From positions 1-22,925 of IMG/VR virus record IMGVR_UViG_3300020437_000803: a stretch of 22,925 bases of DNA. One strand, written 5' to 3'. Origin of the DNA: a virus. The stretch's first letter is position 1, and every line of letters starts with the position of its first letter. The position numbers and the translations under genes were made by a program. This document shows positions 1 to 15,317 of the stretch, piece after piece. A model generated the notes under the pieces. The model searched no databases. It was not told the DNA's origin and was given only the letters and a program-made list of their open reading frames with translations.

Positions 1-887
1 CCATCATAGAAGGTCTTGCGGATGATATCTGCCCAGTCAGCAAGGCGTTTGCAGAAGTTCACATCACCACACAATTTATTGAGGATCTTGGTTTCAATTG
101 CAACAGTGGGATATTCTTGCTCGAAGGTCACAGGAAAACGCTCCAGGAACGCTTCATTGAGAACGTTGGTACCAATAAACCGACCATCGTCAGATCCCTT
201 ACCTTTTGTGTTGGCCGTGGCAATAACTTGGAATCCAGCAGCGGGTTTAACCCACTTACCGATCTTTTTGAGGAAGACTCCCTTACCTTCTAGAATGGAC
301 TGAAGACAGAGGATTTTGTTGGATGCCAGGTCGATCTCGTCCAGAAGGAGAACTGCTCCGCGTTCGAGTGCTTCAATAACGGGACCATTGTGCCATGCAG
401 TATTCCCATCGACAAGCCTAAAACCACCCACCAAGTCATCTTCATCCGTCTCAATTGTAATATTTACCCGAATAAGTTCACGACCCAGTTGGGCGCACGC
501 CTGTTCGACAGAGAACGTTTTACCGTTACCCGAAAGGCCCGTAATGAACGTCGGATAAAATGAACGGGAAGAAATAATCTTTTTAATATCACCAAAGTTA
601 CCAAACTTGACGAAGGAATCATCTTTCTCAGGGATAAGGTTTTGTTCCACAGAGGGAATAGCAGAAGGAGAATTGTAAGATACTTCCAGGTCTTTGACTG
701 TCTCTTTTGTTACTTCAAGATTGTAAGTTCCTCGACCAGACTTATACTGCTTGAGTTTTTTAGCGATAGTCTGGTAGGAAAGGGAAACACCACTATCTAC
801 CATCCATGCTTCGATATTCGCCTTTGTGATGGCGTTTCCATAAGTAGAGTGAAGACCGTCGCGGATGTGTTCTGTGGAGTAGGTCAT
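1..887 (-). CDS. cobS: CobS/MoxR-type AAA+ ATPase (3' end outside window)
   Basis: This is the first 295 codons of an AAA+ ATPase. It matches the protein annotated as CobS in cyanophages, named after the ATPase subunit of aerobic cobaltochelatase. The ATG is at 887. Visible motifs are Walker A GLSGNGKTF near residues 117-125, Walker B LLLDEIDL near residues 183-190, and the sensor-1 stretch ATANT. About 90 residues precede the ATPase core, including a KKLKQYKSG segment. The reading frame runs off the window at position 1, so the C-terminus is not visible. No strong ribosome binding site precedes the ATG. Base composition is clearly richer in G+C than in gp46 (about 50% against about 25% in single sampled lines). 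The family assignment is firm. A role in cobalamin synthesis is doubtful, because no CobN is visible and a VWA-domain partner lies nearby, as in MoxR-VWA systems. Confidence 0.9.
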   Translation of the reverse strand, partial: MTYSTEHIRDGLHSTYGNAITKANIEAWMVDSGVSLSYQTIAKKLKQYKSGRGTYNLEVTKETVKDLEVSYNSPSAIPSVEQNLIPEKDDSFVKFGNFGDIKKIISSRSFYPTFITGLSGNGKTFSVEQACAQLGRELIRVNITIETDEDDLVGGFRLVDGNTAWHNGPVIEALERGAVLLLDEIDLASNKILCLQSILEGKGVFLKKIGKWVKPAAGFQVIATANTKGKGSDDGRFIGTNVLNEAFLERFPVTFEQEYPTVAIETKILNKLCGDVNFCKRLADWADIIRKTFYD

Positions 888-976: not shown

Positions 977-1137
977 TGGAAGTAGTCTTCCGAAGCAATC
1001 TTACCAGTATATCCAGGAAAGTGTTGCTTCATCATTGCGGGAACTCCCATAGCAGTGATACTGCTATCGGTTCGAATCCACACTTCTTTCTTCTCTTCAA
1101 TGACGATGTGTCGCAGGGGAAACTTACTTTTCTTCAT
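955..1137 (-). CDS. Hypothetical 60-aa protein
   Basis: A short reading frame of 60 residues that starts inside the end of the basic 186-aa gene (14 nt overlap) and ends 67 nt before cobS. The N-terminal half is basic (MKKSKFPLRH) and the C-terminal half holds FPGYTG and ends ELLKSQ. I recognise no domain, signal peptide or membrane segment. The overlap, the shared strand and the position between VWA and cobS genes support a real gene in one transcript. Function is unknown. Confidence 0.6.
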   Translation of the reverse strand: MKKSKFPLRHIVIEEKKEVWIRTDSSITAMGVPAMMKQHFPGYTGKIASEDYFQELLKSQ

Positions 1138-1684
1138 AGGTAAATGTTTTGTTTTTCACTTTAGTGTCGAATTCACCAGTCCTACCTGGTCTCATTTTTC
1201 CAACCTTTGCATTCTTTCCTTTACCAGGCCAAGATTGCTTGGATGTTCCTTTGAGTGTAGCAGATCCTTTTGGTTTGCGTTGAATCAGAACTGAATCCTG
1301 ATCATCTTTAGATGATCCGGGTTTTGTATTCTTCTTGTGTTTGAGTCCACGTTCTGTTCCCAACTTTTCGATGGTTTTTTTGAACTTGCGTTTACCCATT
1401 TTACCAGAAGAAACTACATGAGACTTCTCCCCAACTTTCTTTTCTTGAGGTGTTCCTGGGTTCTCTGTATATCTTCCAGATACTTTTGTAGGGCCTGGAA
1501 GACCAGCACCACGAATTCGTCTTTCAGTTCTCTTACTTCTCTCTTTATTCTCTTTGGAGGACTTGTCTCCTCTTTGCCCAGAAAGGATGGCCATGCCACC
1601 CTTCTGTGATTTGGAGCGAATTCTATTCAGAGAAGTTTCCTGAATAGAATTACATTCTACCATAAATTGCTGAAATGTCTTCAT
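1124..1684 (-). CDS. Basic lysine-rich hypothetical protein, 186 aa
   Basis: The protein is strongly basic, rich in Lys, Arg, Gly and Ser, and likely largely disordered. The first eight residues (MKTFQQFM) form a short hydrophobic opening of a kind I recall at the start of several cyanophage proteins. That resemblance is from memory, not from a search. The body contains repeated Lys-rich stretches such as GKMGKRKFKKT and PGKGKNAKVGK. The start overlaps the stop of the VWA-peptidase gene by 4 nt (ATGA), so translation is probably coupled. The composition would fit a nucleic-acid-binding or packaged protein, but nothing in the sequence proves it. Confidence 0.7.
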   Translation of the reverse strand: MKTFQQFMVECNSIQETSLNRIRSKSQKGGMAILSGQRGDKSSKENKERSKRTERRIRGAGLPGPTKVSGRYTENPGTPQEKKVGEKSHVVSSGKMGKRKFKKTIEKLGTERGLKHKKNTKPGSSKDDQDSVLIQRKPKGSATLKGTSKQSWPGKGKNAKVGKMRPGRTGEFDTKVKNKTFTYEEK

Positions 1685-3846
1685 ACCACCAAAGAAATAA
1701 ATTCTCCTAATACTTTTTTATTTAGTTTTTTGGTCTTCAAAGACTTAGCAAATGCAGATTTGATCTTTGCTTTGGTTGCACCGTCATCAACATCAAACTC
1801 AGATTCTTGAGAAAGAGTTGCGGAGGACATTCCAAAGTAAGCATCATATCCAGAAGATTTGATATTAAAACTCCGAGACTTCTTCCACTCTTTCTGAATA
1901 CGATCAAACTCATCATCACCAAAGTCACAGTAACTACGAATGAATGAGTTTGCATCGCGAGGAGAAAGAACACGAATTCCGATGAAGTTTGCGTTAGGAA
2001 AGTTGTCCTTCAGGTTGCGAAGCATAACATCAGTGAAGCATCGATAGTGACCCTGTATTGCGTAGGTTGTTCCGAGTTTGCGATCACGGATATAGGACTC
2101 TCCCGGATAAAGATGACGAGTTCCAAGATATGGTTCTGGTTCCCAAGGTCTCTTCACCGTAACATGATATGAAAGACTGTTTGCTTCGCCATCAGTAAGA
2201 ACAATACACTGAACTTTCTGAAGTTTATTTGTCTTCTGAAAGTCTGGAAGAATTGTGTGAAGAGAAGCTAATGCTTCATTTAGAGGAGTTCCAGACAAAC
2301 TAATACGCTCGGGAACAGAATATCGAGAACCATATACATTGCCATAGTAACAAGCAATTCTCCAAATATTGATCATCTGTTTTTCAATTTCCTTTGCAGG
2401 AACTTGACTGGTGAAAATATTCATCATAGAAAATGAATCGTCAATGGACAAGAAACCTTCTTTCTTTTCATATGAAGGAGTCAGATCGGCATCAACATAC
2501 TTTTCCAATTTATGACTGTAATGAGCTCTTTTCCACTCATTAGTGAATGCATAAACCTCAAAAGGAATCGACACTTTCTTGCAGAACCAGATCAAGTTGA
2601 ATAGTTGCTTGCAGGTATCCCGAAGGACGTTGGACATTGATCCAGACCAATCAAGAACAAAGATCAACCCGTGATTCTTACCGTCCGGAAGGACTGTAAC
2701 TTTTTTAAAGAGATCTTCATTATACCTATAAGTATGAAGTTTAGTGGTATCAAGAACACCAGTGCGAGAAGTAGAAGCACGAGCATAGGAATCTGCAGAT
2801 TTCTTGCATTCAAACTCCTTTACCAAATAGTTGACTTCCTTCTGAGCAGACTTCTTGAAGTCATAAAAAAGTTGATCAACAACATGGTAGAGATCAATCT
2901 CATCCATTCCATGAGATTTTGATCTTTGATTAGACGTTCTTTGAACAAGAGTGAACCACTCGTTAATTACATCATGAACCTCAGAGTTTTTAGCGATGAG
3001 GTTTTGAGAATCCAGTTTGGGGATTTCAGCATAGACATTGTCACCAGACCTTTGGTCAACCAGATCCTTGAGTTTTTCTTCAAGATTGTTCGCTGTTGTA
3101 ACTTCCAATTCATCATTATCTCCAGCATTAGTTCCGGGAGTAACATTAGAATTGTTCTCAACAGAATCTTGAGGTTCATCCTCACCATCTCCACTCTCAG
3201 AATCTTGAGAATCTAAATTCTCAGAACTCTGTTGAGGAGATCCAGACTCAGAGATCTCCTGAGGGGGAATAGGAGCATCTGGTCTGTCATCATTATCAAT
3301 CTCATTTTTACAGTACCTATAGAGAGATTCTGCAGCAGTTAAAACATCTTCAAAAGTCTCACACTCTGTAATCATACGGACGAGAGTTCCTTCTTTTTCA
3401 GAATCAAATTTAATATCTACAAAGTTTCCTACTTTGAAGTATAGGTTAACTCGATCAGCGAGATTCATGGAGGAAATATCTTCACCAGATATCTCAAAGA
3501 AGTCTTTTTCACTCATTTCCTTATATCCACCAAAGAAAGTTTTCGCAAGTCCTGGATACTTACGTTTCATCAACTTCTCAATACGAGCGTCTTCTACAAC
3601 ATTCACAAACTGTGGAGGAATATCATACTCTAAGAACCAATCGTCGTCTGGAGTAAACAGAGCGTGGCCAACTTCATGACCAACGAGCATATCATATACA
3701 ACATTACTTGTATCCCACACTGGAAGAGTCAGGACGCGAGTGTGAACATTGAATTGTGCGGTCTCGATCTGACGGTGTTCAACGACCAGGTCTTCGGTCG
3801 CAAGAAGTTTTGCCAGTTGTGACTTGATTTCGTGGGAGACGTACAT
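1681..3846 (-). CDS. HEXXH metallopeptidase fused to a VWA (MIDAS) domain, CobT-like
   Basis: The protein has 721 residues in three regions. The N-terminal region carries the zinc-peptidase signature HEVGH at residues 57-61, with a nearby acidic segment VEDARIE (84-90) that could supply the third zinc ligand as in gluzincins. Residues about 185-250 form an acidic Ser/Asp/Glu linker. The C-terminal region is a von Willebrand factor A domain with a complete-looking MIDAS: DWSGS at 399-403, Thr520 in SGTPLNEA, and Asp552 in LTDGEA. This layout resembles CobT, the VWA partner of CobS, but canonical CobT has no HEXXH peptidase that I know of. The CobS-like ATPase lies two small genes downstream. 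The likely role is an ATP-driven, metal-dependent protein-remodelling or proteolytic complex in the host cytoplasm. Substrate is unknown. The ribosome binding site before ATG 3846 is weak. Confidence 0.85.
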   Translation of the reverse strand: MYVSHEIKSQLAKLLATEDLVVEHRQIETAQFNVHTRVLTLPVWDTSNVVYDMLVGHEVGHALFTPDDDWFLEYDIPPQFVNVVEDARIEKLMKRKYPGLAKTFFGGYKEMSEKDFFEISGEDISSMNLADRVNLYFKVGNFVDIKFDSEKEGTLVRMITECETFEDVLTAAESLYRYCKNEIDNDDRPDAPIPPQEISESGSPQQSSENLDSQDSESGDGEDEPQDSVENNSNVTPGTNAGDNDELEVTTANNLEEKLKDLVDQRSGDNVYAEIPKLDSQNLIAKNSEVHDVINEWFTLVQRTSNQRSKSHGMDEIDLYHVVDQLFYDFKKSAQKEVNYLVKEFECKKSADSYARASTSRTGVLDTTKLHTYRYNEDLFKKVTVLPDGKNHGLIFVLDWSGSMSNVLRDTCKQLFNLIWFCKKVSIPFEVYAFTNEWKRAHYSHKLEKYVDADLTPSYEKKEGFLSIDDSFSMMNIFTSQVPAKEIEKQMINIWRIACYYGNVYGSRYSVPERISLSGTPLNEALASLHTILPDFQKTNKLQKVQCIVLTDGEANSLSYHVTVKRPWEPEPYLGTRHLYPGESYIRDRKLGTTYAIQGHYRCFTDVMLRNLKDNFPNANFIGIRVLSPRDANSFIRSYCDFGDDEFDRIQKEWKKSRSFNIKSSGYDAYFGMSSATLSQESEFDVDDGATKAKIKSAFAKSLKTKKLNKKVLGEFISLVV

Positions 3847-3879
3847 GTGGTTCGTTTCTTATGTGGCCATAATACTAAA

Positions 3880-3899
3880 CCCCCACCTTTCGGTGAGGG
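3880..3899 (-). terminator. GC-rich hairpin with GAAA loop, possible terminator or processing site
   Basis: In minus-strand RNA an 8-bp stem closes a GAAA tetraloop. One pair is G-U, which would be a C-A mismatch in plus-strand RNA, so the structure favours minus-strand transcription. The downstream bases are UUUAGUAUU, a poor U-tract. It lies between the 58-aa gene and the VWA-peptidase gene, 33 nt before the latter's ATG. It could be a leaky terminator or an RNA processing element. Confidence 0.55.
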
Positions 3900-3905
3900 C
3901 CCTCA

Positions 3906-8609: not shown

Positions 8610-9017
8610 CTATTCAGGCTTATATTTGAGATTAAAGAGCTTCTCTAGTAACTCTTTTGCATCATTAATATTAGAAACATATCCCATCTTTTTACTTATC
8701 TTTGAAGAATTGCCTTTTTGTGGTTGTTTAGCATGGTGTATAAATTCTTGATACATCATAATCATTTCAATGTCGGATGACTCTGACATAGTTAGAACAT
8801 CATCTAAGTTAATAAAGAACATATCGTCCTTTGTTGTTTTTAACCACGGTTCTATTTTATATCCAACCATATTTGATTGTACTTTAATTTCACCAATGAC
8901 AACAGGATTTGAAACAATTAACATTGTTCTTTCATCTTCTTCTGAAGCTGCGACTTTAGCAAAAATCTCTTCACCGCTCTTTAGTTTGATTGTTGCGTAA
9001 AAATCGTCTTCTATCAT
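8610..9017 (-). CDS. Hypothetical 135-aa protein with possible Sm-like N-terminus
   Basis: I do not recognise a named family with certainty. Residues about 5-45 show a beta pattern, YATIKLKSGEEIFAKV then TMLIVSNPVVIGEI, which recalls the Sm/LSm layout of a strand, a turn with Gly and a second strand. The middle is acidic and the C-terminal 35 residues are mixed charge and probably helical (DAKELLEKLF). The ATG overlaps the uvsW stop by 4 nt, so translation is likely coupled to uvsW. T4 has a small gene, uvsW.1, in the same position, but that is a positional analogy only. Confidence 0.8.
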   Translation of the reverse strand: MIEDDFYATIKLKSGEEIFAKVAASEEDERTMLIVSNPVVIGEIKVQSNMVGYKIEPWLKTTKDDMFFINLDDVLTMSESSDIEMIMMYQEFIHHAKQPQKGNSSKISKKMGYVSNINDAKELLEKLFNLKYKPE

Positions 9018-14666: not shown

Positions 14667-15317
14667 TTAAAGTTTTGAGATGAATTCATCAAAAAGACTT
14701 AACTTATACTCTTCTAATAACTTTTGATCAACTAATGTGTTGATTTTTTTCTTTGTATTTTCTGCGAGTCTTTCGCGAAGAATACCTCCTTCCCAGACCC
14801 ATTCTTTTCCTTCCATAATACCTTCAACAAAAGCATCAGGAGCAGAAGGATCTGCTACAATATCTGCAGCAGTTGCCAACATAAAATCTTCACCAACTTC
14901 AGAATATCCTTCTTTGGTTGGTTTTAATGAACCTATACCACGAGAAGAAACACCAAGAGTTACACCCTCTTTAAGTAAAGATTCTGCAATTTTTCCCATT
15001 GGTGTGGAAAGAATTTGTGCTTTTCCGATAAAATTGTTACCTTCTTGACGAAGACCTACAATTTTATGTGAAACACGATCGAGATTGATTGATGGGCCAT
15101 CAGGATGTCCCAGTTCTCCCAGAGCACGGCCTTTATTGATATACGAATCTGTATATCTGCCAACTTCGCGTTCCATTACAGATCTGCGATATACTCTTCC
15201 ATTTCGGTTCTTAGTTTCAGTTTGTAAAAATGGACCCTGAATGAACAGAGTTTTTTTACCATTTACTGACTCGGTAAGAACTTCAATGTTCTCGATTTCT
15301 TCTCGGATAAGTTTCAT
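14667..15317 (-). CDS. 21: Prohead core protease gp21
   Basis: The serine protease that cleaves gp23, gp22 and other prohead proteins. The length is 216 residues (T4: 212). The herpesvirus-like protease fold is shown by GPFLQTETKNRNGRVYRRSV near residue 28, the catalytic His71 in ELGHPDGP, and the Ser124/Ser125 pair in LGVSSRGIG. It starts four bases after the stop of the 87-aa gene and lacks a strong Shine-Dalgarno, so translation may be coupled. Confidence 0.95.
   Translation of the reverse strand: MKLIREEIENIEVLTESVNGKKTLFIQGPFLQTETKNRNGRVYRRSVMEREVGRYTDSYINKGRALGELGHPDGPSINLDRVSHKIVGLRQEGNNFIGKAQILSTPMGKIAESLLKEGVTLGVSSRGIGSLKPTKEGYSEVGEDFMLATAADIVADPSAPDAFVEGIMEGKEWVWEGGILRERLAENTKKKINTLVDQKLLEEYKLSLFDEFISKL

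Follow-up and report, generated by a model that had tools for sequence, protein, structure and literature searches.

The locus analyzed here raises the question of what a phage would do with a protein that joins a HExxH peptidase motif and a VWA/MIDAS domain in a single chain. The window, that is, the whole 22.9-kb stretch of virus DNA under study, has a gene content that reads as that of a T4-like cyanophage. On its minus strand lie, in this order, gp17 terminase, tail sheath, tail tube, portal, gp21 protease, gp23 capsid, UvsY, UvsW, gp55, gp47, gp46, an epimerase, the 721-aa gene, a 186-aa gene and a CobS-like ATPase, the structural genes being named from their translated sequences and from the gene order. 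The strand of the 721-aa gene, which is minus, was not given in the original prediction. The features are as follows.

1681..3846, minus strand: metallopeptidase-VWA protein, 721 aa (PHROG_459 'peptidase'; residues 3-720 match the profile, E 1.5e-263)
3286..3846, minus strand: zincin-like N-terminal domain, residues 1-187, with three strands, the HExxH helix (48-64) and a second helix (78-96), from models
3664..3678, minus strand: HEVGH, residues 57-61, invariant in 42 sequences
3583..3603, minus strand: N82-x-x-E85-D86-x-R88, from which the third metal ligand probably comes (D86 favored), from the alignment
3097..3285, minus strand: acidic disordered linker, residues 188-250, from composition and model
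1867..2679, minus strand: VWA domain, residues ~390-660, from the model and structure comparison
2638..2652, minus strand: MIDAS motif DWSGS, residues 399-403, conserved in alignments
2287..2289, minus strand: MIDAS T520, invariant
2191..2193, minus strand: MIDAS D552, invariant
1124..1684, minus strand: 186-aa basic protein, with a 4-base overlap with the stop of the VWA gene, from sequence
3..887, minus strand: CobS-like MoxR AAA+ ATPase, N-terminal 295 aa, cut by the window end, 75% identical to S-SM2 CobS

The T4-type late promoter TATAAATA was absent upstream of the 721-aa gene, which says nothing on timing. A terminator-like hairpin, CCCTCACC-GAAA-GGTGGGGG followed by TTT (window 3879-3900, minus strand), was spotted by eye just upstream of the start of the VWA gene and was not called by the terminator scan. 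Elsewhere in the window, the PHROGs label 'methylamine utilization' (phrog_471, E 3.8e-38) was attached to the gene at 8610-9017 (minus strand) and seems implausible, given the position of this gene between gp55 and uvsW.

Conserved motifs and modelled domains

The original prediction placed HEVGH (57-61), a MIDAS set (D399, S401, S403, T520 and D552) and an acidic linker in one 721-aa chain, and all were found there, both motifs being invariant in 42 sequences. The number of HExxH motifs expected by chance in a protein of this composition was 0.027. In alignments of nine phage proteins, down to 21% identity, and of 42 sequences, down to 29%, the residues H57, E58, H61, N82, E85, D86 and R88 of the N-terminal part and D399, S401, G402, S403, M404, T520, P521, T551, D552 and G553 of the VWA part were invariant; the MIDAS was complete, and a chance origin of the motifs was excluded by this conservation. 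Furthermore, HExxH and the downstream N..ED..R were kept, wherever the N-terminus was complete, at the 245 viral loci with a homologue, and those apparent exceptions that were inspected were truncations at contig ends or, at two loci, an NLVED that the regular expression had missed.

The arrangement is that expected of a zincin: HExxH with its catalytic Glu and, at the place where an acidic residue had been predicted (84-90), the candidate third ligand E85/D86, all invariant. The pattern of loss, although drawn from few independent events, favors D86 as the probable third metal ligand, since it was lost together with HExxH in 3/3 degenerate lineages, where E, S or Q stands in its place and E85 is retained, and since the protein of ICP2 keeps D86 with V at position 85. 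In the other aligned lineages HExxH and D86 were kept together. Homologues lacking HExxH, named beforehand as evidence against a peptidase, did not occur inside PHROG_459 and were seen only among distant CobT-like relatives (the Acinetobacter phage-plasmid, the Pseudomonas phage nickie and cellular CobT). The three lineages that persist without the site indicate that the fold can serve without catalysis, as would be the case if HExxH formed a structural or sensory metal site with no peptidase. Nevertheless, a purely structural site needs no E58, and this general base was invariant in addition to the ligands H57 and H61; we consider such a role improbable.

The full-length model (pLDDT 78.7) comprised the N-domain, the disordered acidic linker, helices and the VWA domain. 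Three strands were modelled in the N-domain, together with helix 48-64, bearing HEVGH, and helix 78-96, bearing N82, E85, D86 and R88; when residues 1-187 were modelled alone, the pLDDT was 88. The PDB matches of this domain, taken from the best Foldseek matches and the VIA-align list, were almost all zincins but individually weak: ArdC was the best (Z 7.0), and the others included ZMPSTE24 (6.5), abylysin (5.8), jannalysin, BlaR1, selecase, IrrE/PprI, BepA, Wss1 and M1 aminopeptidases. Z scores of this size are also reached by commonplace fold arrangements, and the Foldseek E was no better than 0.028. The N-domain had no direct Pfam match, and only a single chance match was obtained when solved structures were searched by sequence with the phage profile. 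A resemblance to zincins is therefore suggested by a list of matches that is consistent, though low in score, together with the HExxH found independently from sequence.

The best matches of the VWA model were MDN1/Rea1 (Z 14-17) and NorD bound to its MoxR ATPase NorQ (Z 12-15), and NorQD was also the top Foldseek match of this part. The best score of each exceeded those of generic VWA domains (Z 12.2 or less), and the matches extended into the helices preceding the VWA domain. As the VWA domains of MDN1/Rea1 and NorD work with AAA+ motors, these comparisons support the assignment of the modelled domain to the AAA+-linked type. Together, the models and the invariance of the motifs speak for a single chain with two genuine domains, a zincin-like one and a VWA domain of the AAA-linked type.

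Between them, the linker (188-250) was, as predicted, acidic, with 27% D+E and 1.6% K+R, and disordered in the model. A long disordered linker would suit a zincin domain that cuts its own chain there and frees the VWA arm, in the way that CLCA-type metalloproteases cut themselves, and in Pseudoalteromonas phage XG4 (L085:3869-6111) the zincin-like and VWA halves are indeed two separate ORFs, in reversed order, which retain HEVSH and DFSWS and have a CobS-like gene beside them. However, the sequence of the linker was not conserved among the nine phage proteins, so no cleavage site is visible, and we regard self-processing as the most doubtful of the alternatives.

Distribution of the family and its CobS-like partner

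A homologue was present in 463 phage records, at least 80% of the length being covered in 457 of them. PHROG_459 belongs to the core gene set of T4-like cyanophages and has been annotated 'peptidase' for years. As T4-GC 146, it occupies the same place, between gp46 and cobS, and no difference from it was seen in the full-length match; nothing sets the window protein apart within this known family. HExxH-VWA proteins with an N..ED..IE-like helix and an adjacent AAA+ gene were also found in haloviruses (HVTV-1, with HECGH and WNAAEDGAIER), SSU5-type Salmonella and Klebsiella phage-plasmids (HEVAH/HEVGH), Rhizobium phages, a cobavirus, ICP2, Gordonia and Tsukamurella phages, and the Roseobacter phage CRP-810 (HEAGH). 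The site was lost in three lineages, the Acinetobacter phage-plasmid (QEVAK), the Pseudomonas phage nickie (SEISK) and the cellular CobT of Alphaproteobacteria. Viral-contig searches with the Stenotrophomonas and Ochrobactrum proteins returned no relatives. The fusion has, moreover, been published for other phages, and the description of the protein as an unusual phage tool was not borne out.

The CobT-like genes were retrieved with an approximate query, the VWA part of cellular CobT, and the conclusions rest on the sequences retrieved. A CobT-like VWA gene was carried by 957 PLSDB records, mostly enterobacterial and Acinetobacter elements of ~110 kb (e.g., L172 and L173), which look like SSU5-type phage-plasmids and in which it is annotated as a porphyrin or cobalamin gene.

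A partnership with a MoxR-class ATPase had been proposed, and a gene of this class does lie close by in the window (3-887). In 212 of the 216 viral-contig loci with room, the strand of the homologue also bore a CobS-like ORF, downstream in 211 and upstream in one. The CobS-like AAA+ gene was next or next but one in S-SM2, P-HM1, S-RIM14, S-CRM01, HTVC008M, Mosig, DLP6 and vB_OspM_OC, and the pair stayed adjacent where it had been relocated within the genome. The S-SM2 CobS contains AAA_5 and CbbQ_C-like domains.

Relation to cellular CobT

The cyanophage protein has been called CobT and considered 'mistakenly annotated as a peptidase' (Liu 2021). Like the CobT of the aerobic cobaltochelatase, it has an N-domain, an acidic linker, a VWA domain and an adjacent CobS gene. 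However, the window protein matched neither PF06213, the Pfam CobT N-domain, nor PF11775 at E up to 1, and did not match TIGR01651, for which the equivalog threshold is 759 bits and Sinorhizobium CobT scores 1167. The direct profile comparison of PHROG_459 with cellular CobT was non-significant (E 0.062 for the N-domain and 0.018 at full length). As the window protein also failed every CobT model, we refrain from naming it CobT.

A link between the two runs, instead, through the SSU5/Rhizobium-type proteins. In profile comparisons, PHROG_459 matched these with a probability of 97.6% (E 3e-12) over the N-domain and 98.7% (2.6e-16) over the full length. They in turn matched cellular CobT with an E of 5e-37 over the whole protein, mostly from the VWA domain, and with 3e-4, at a probability of only 39%, over the N-domain. 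Additionally, phage proteins with an intact motif matched PF06213 above the curated cut-off, namely those of the Salmonella pHCM2 (HEVAH, 7e-33), cobavirus (HEAGH, 8.5e-11) and RHEph10 (HEVAH, 6.5e-6). The same register was obtained with hhalign and with unguided MAFFT, RGFLD-HEVAH being aligned with RGLGD-SMALR and NALEDVFIER with DAVEQARVEA. Hence, unlike the window protein, cellular CobT has SMALR at the place of HExxH and Q at D86. A pattern search for [SA][MI]AL[RK] picked up 67 of 80 cellular CobT loci and gave no match in 13.

From these alignments, cellular CobT looks like a pseudo-peptidase branch of one family that includes the phage HExxH-VWA proteins. The original prediction, which held that CobT has no such peptidase motif, was correct for cellular CobT, whose N-domain nevertheless seems to be that of the phage proteins, minus the motif. 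The phage label 'peptidase' and the view that the protein is CobT can thus be reconciled, both being partly right, because PF06213 takes in phage proteins whose HExxH is intact, while cellular CobT has lost the motif. On balance, we lean slightly toward placing CobT, as a member that has lost its activity, in a widespread viral family of zincin-VWA proteases coupled to AAA+ motors, the phage 'cobS/cobT' pair being a proteolytic remodelling machine and no auxiliary B12 pathway, and the cobaltochelatase motor sharing ancestry with such a machine or descending from it. In the open-access literature no paper linking CobT to a zincin was found, and the relation of the CobT N-terminal domain to zincins, with a lost active site, appears to be unpublished there.

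The opposite view is that the pair represents cobaltochelatase motor subunits which, with a host CobN, raise cobalamin during infection, the label 'peptidase' being a mistake (Liu 2021). The wider family does combine a CobT-like VWA domain with a CobS-like ATPase, but cellular CobT has lost exactly the residues that are invariant in phages, and the window protein reaches none of the three CobT models. Cyanobacteria make cobamides, and PF02514 (CobN/ChlH) is present in Synechococcus elongatus, so that the B12 reading may hold for cyanophages alone, PF02514 including ChlH. Elsewhere, E. coli lacks PF02514, yet its SSU5-type phage-plasmids bear the pair, and no PF02514 (CobN) protein was found in 10 pair-bearing virus records. 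Since B12 synthesis needs CobN, a B12 role is argued against in these cases, and overall we judge it unlikely. In Caulobacter vibrioides, a control genome, a PF06213 (CobT) match was obtained without a PF02514 (CobN) match; this species may keep CobT without CobN.

A proposed remodelling machine and related systems

The two modelled domains, the invariant catalytic-type and MIDAS residues and the near-constant pairing with a CobS-like gene were apparent from sequences and models. The invariance of E58, the AAA-linked type of the VWA domain and the constant CobS pairing point to ATP-driven remodelling with proteolysis. Our main reading, to which we give a probability of roughly two in three, is that of a two-gene MoxR-VWA-metallopeptidase machine whose client would be cleaved by the zincin domain. 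The CobS-like MoxR hexamer, encoded just downstream, would provide the ATP-driven force; the C-terminal VWA/MIDAS arm would dock on the ring and/or grip the client by an acidic residue bridged to the metal, in the manner of Rea1/midasin and NorQD; and the N-terminal zincin domain, on its flexible acidic linker, would cut the remodelled client. Metal binding, proteolysis, the hexamer, the complex and the client are what we infer.

The same machine with a different client was proposed for group 2.2 jumbo phages, in which a MoxR and metallopeptidase-vWA pair was assigned to virion assembly (Iyer et al., 2021, PMC7824862); the domain order and the MoxR partner agree with ours, as compared by text description, and the main text of that paper places P-SSM2-type cyanophages in group 2.1. 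There, the MoxR-VWA pair would build parts of the tail or head, a structural protein being trimmed by the zincin, and an Acidianus virus MoxR-VWA pair is cited as needed for tail assembly. The status of core cyanophage gene also fits an assembly role. Nevertheless, in most lineages seen the gene lies outside the structural block and is surrounded by genes for replication or recombination (gp46/47 and gp45/44 in cyanophages; dnaE, ligase and primase elsewhere), and T4-like phages already have the gp21 prohead protease, which sequence and gene order place at 14667-15317 in the window. A virion client is thus possible though clearly less probable, and this neighborhood, as read from the gene order, weakly favors a client of the replication phase or of host takeover for the proposed machine. 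A reading as a defense system was rejected, with no PADLOC match.

Other known systems resemble the window protein in part. NorD/NorQ and Rea1/MDN1 have the closest VWA folds, but no zincin is fused to the VWA constructs that make up the matched chains. DUF2201_N/DUF2201 (PF13203), described as a putative metallopeptidase whose partner domain is VWA-like, is represented by a locus (L263) with HEILH, NLACD and a C-terminal VWA-like stretch; the window protein gave no PF13203 match. CLCA metalloproteases carry a VWA fusion, and we know of no MoxR partner for them. CLCA is a HExxH zincin family, and the title of PMC3650047 states that some of its members have substituted catalytic sites.

Ocean surveys put cobS at about one copy per myo-cyanophage, and the gene is classed with the auxiliary metabolic genes, for B12. 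If its partner is an active protease-VWA protein, a viral gene that ranks among the commonest 'metabolic' ones of the sea is mislabelled, and the CobT of cobaltochelatase would gain an evolutionary origin, a dead peptidase.

The 186-aa gene between the VWA and CobS-like genes is probably outside the conserved CobS/VWA module. Residues 33-106 of its product matched the Pfam family S-AdoMet_lyase (PF23780, E 1e-7, above the cut-off). Its start, MKTFQQFMVE, is similar to the N-terminus that targets T4 internal proteins to the capsid, and by this analogy the protein might be packaged in the virion. A relative with a similar start (MKTFNEF...) was observed at another locus (L079).
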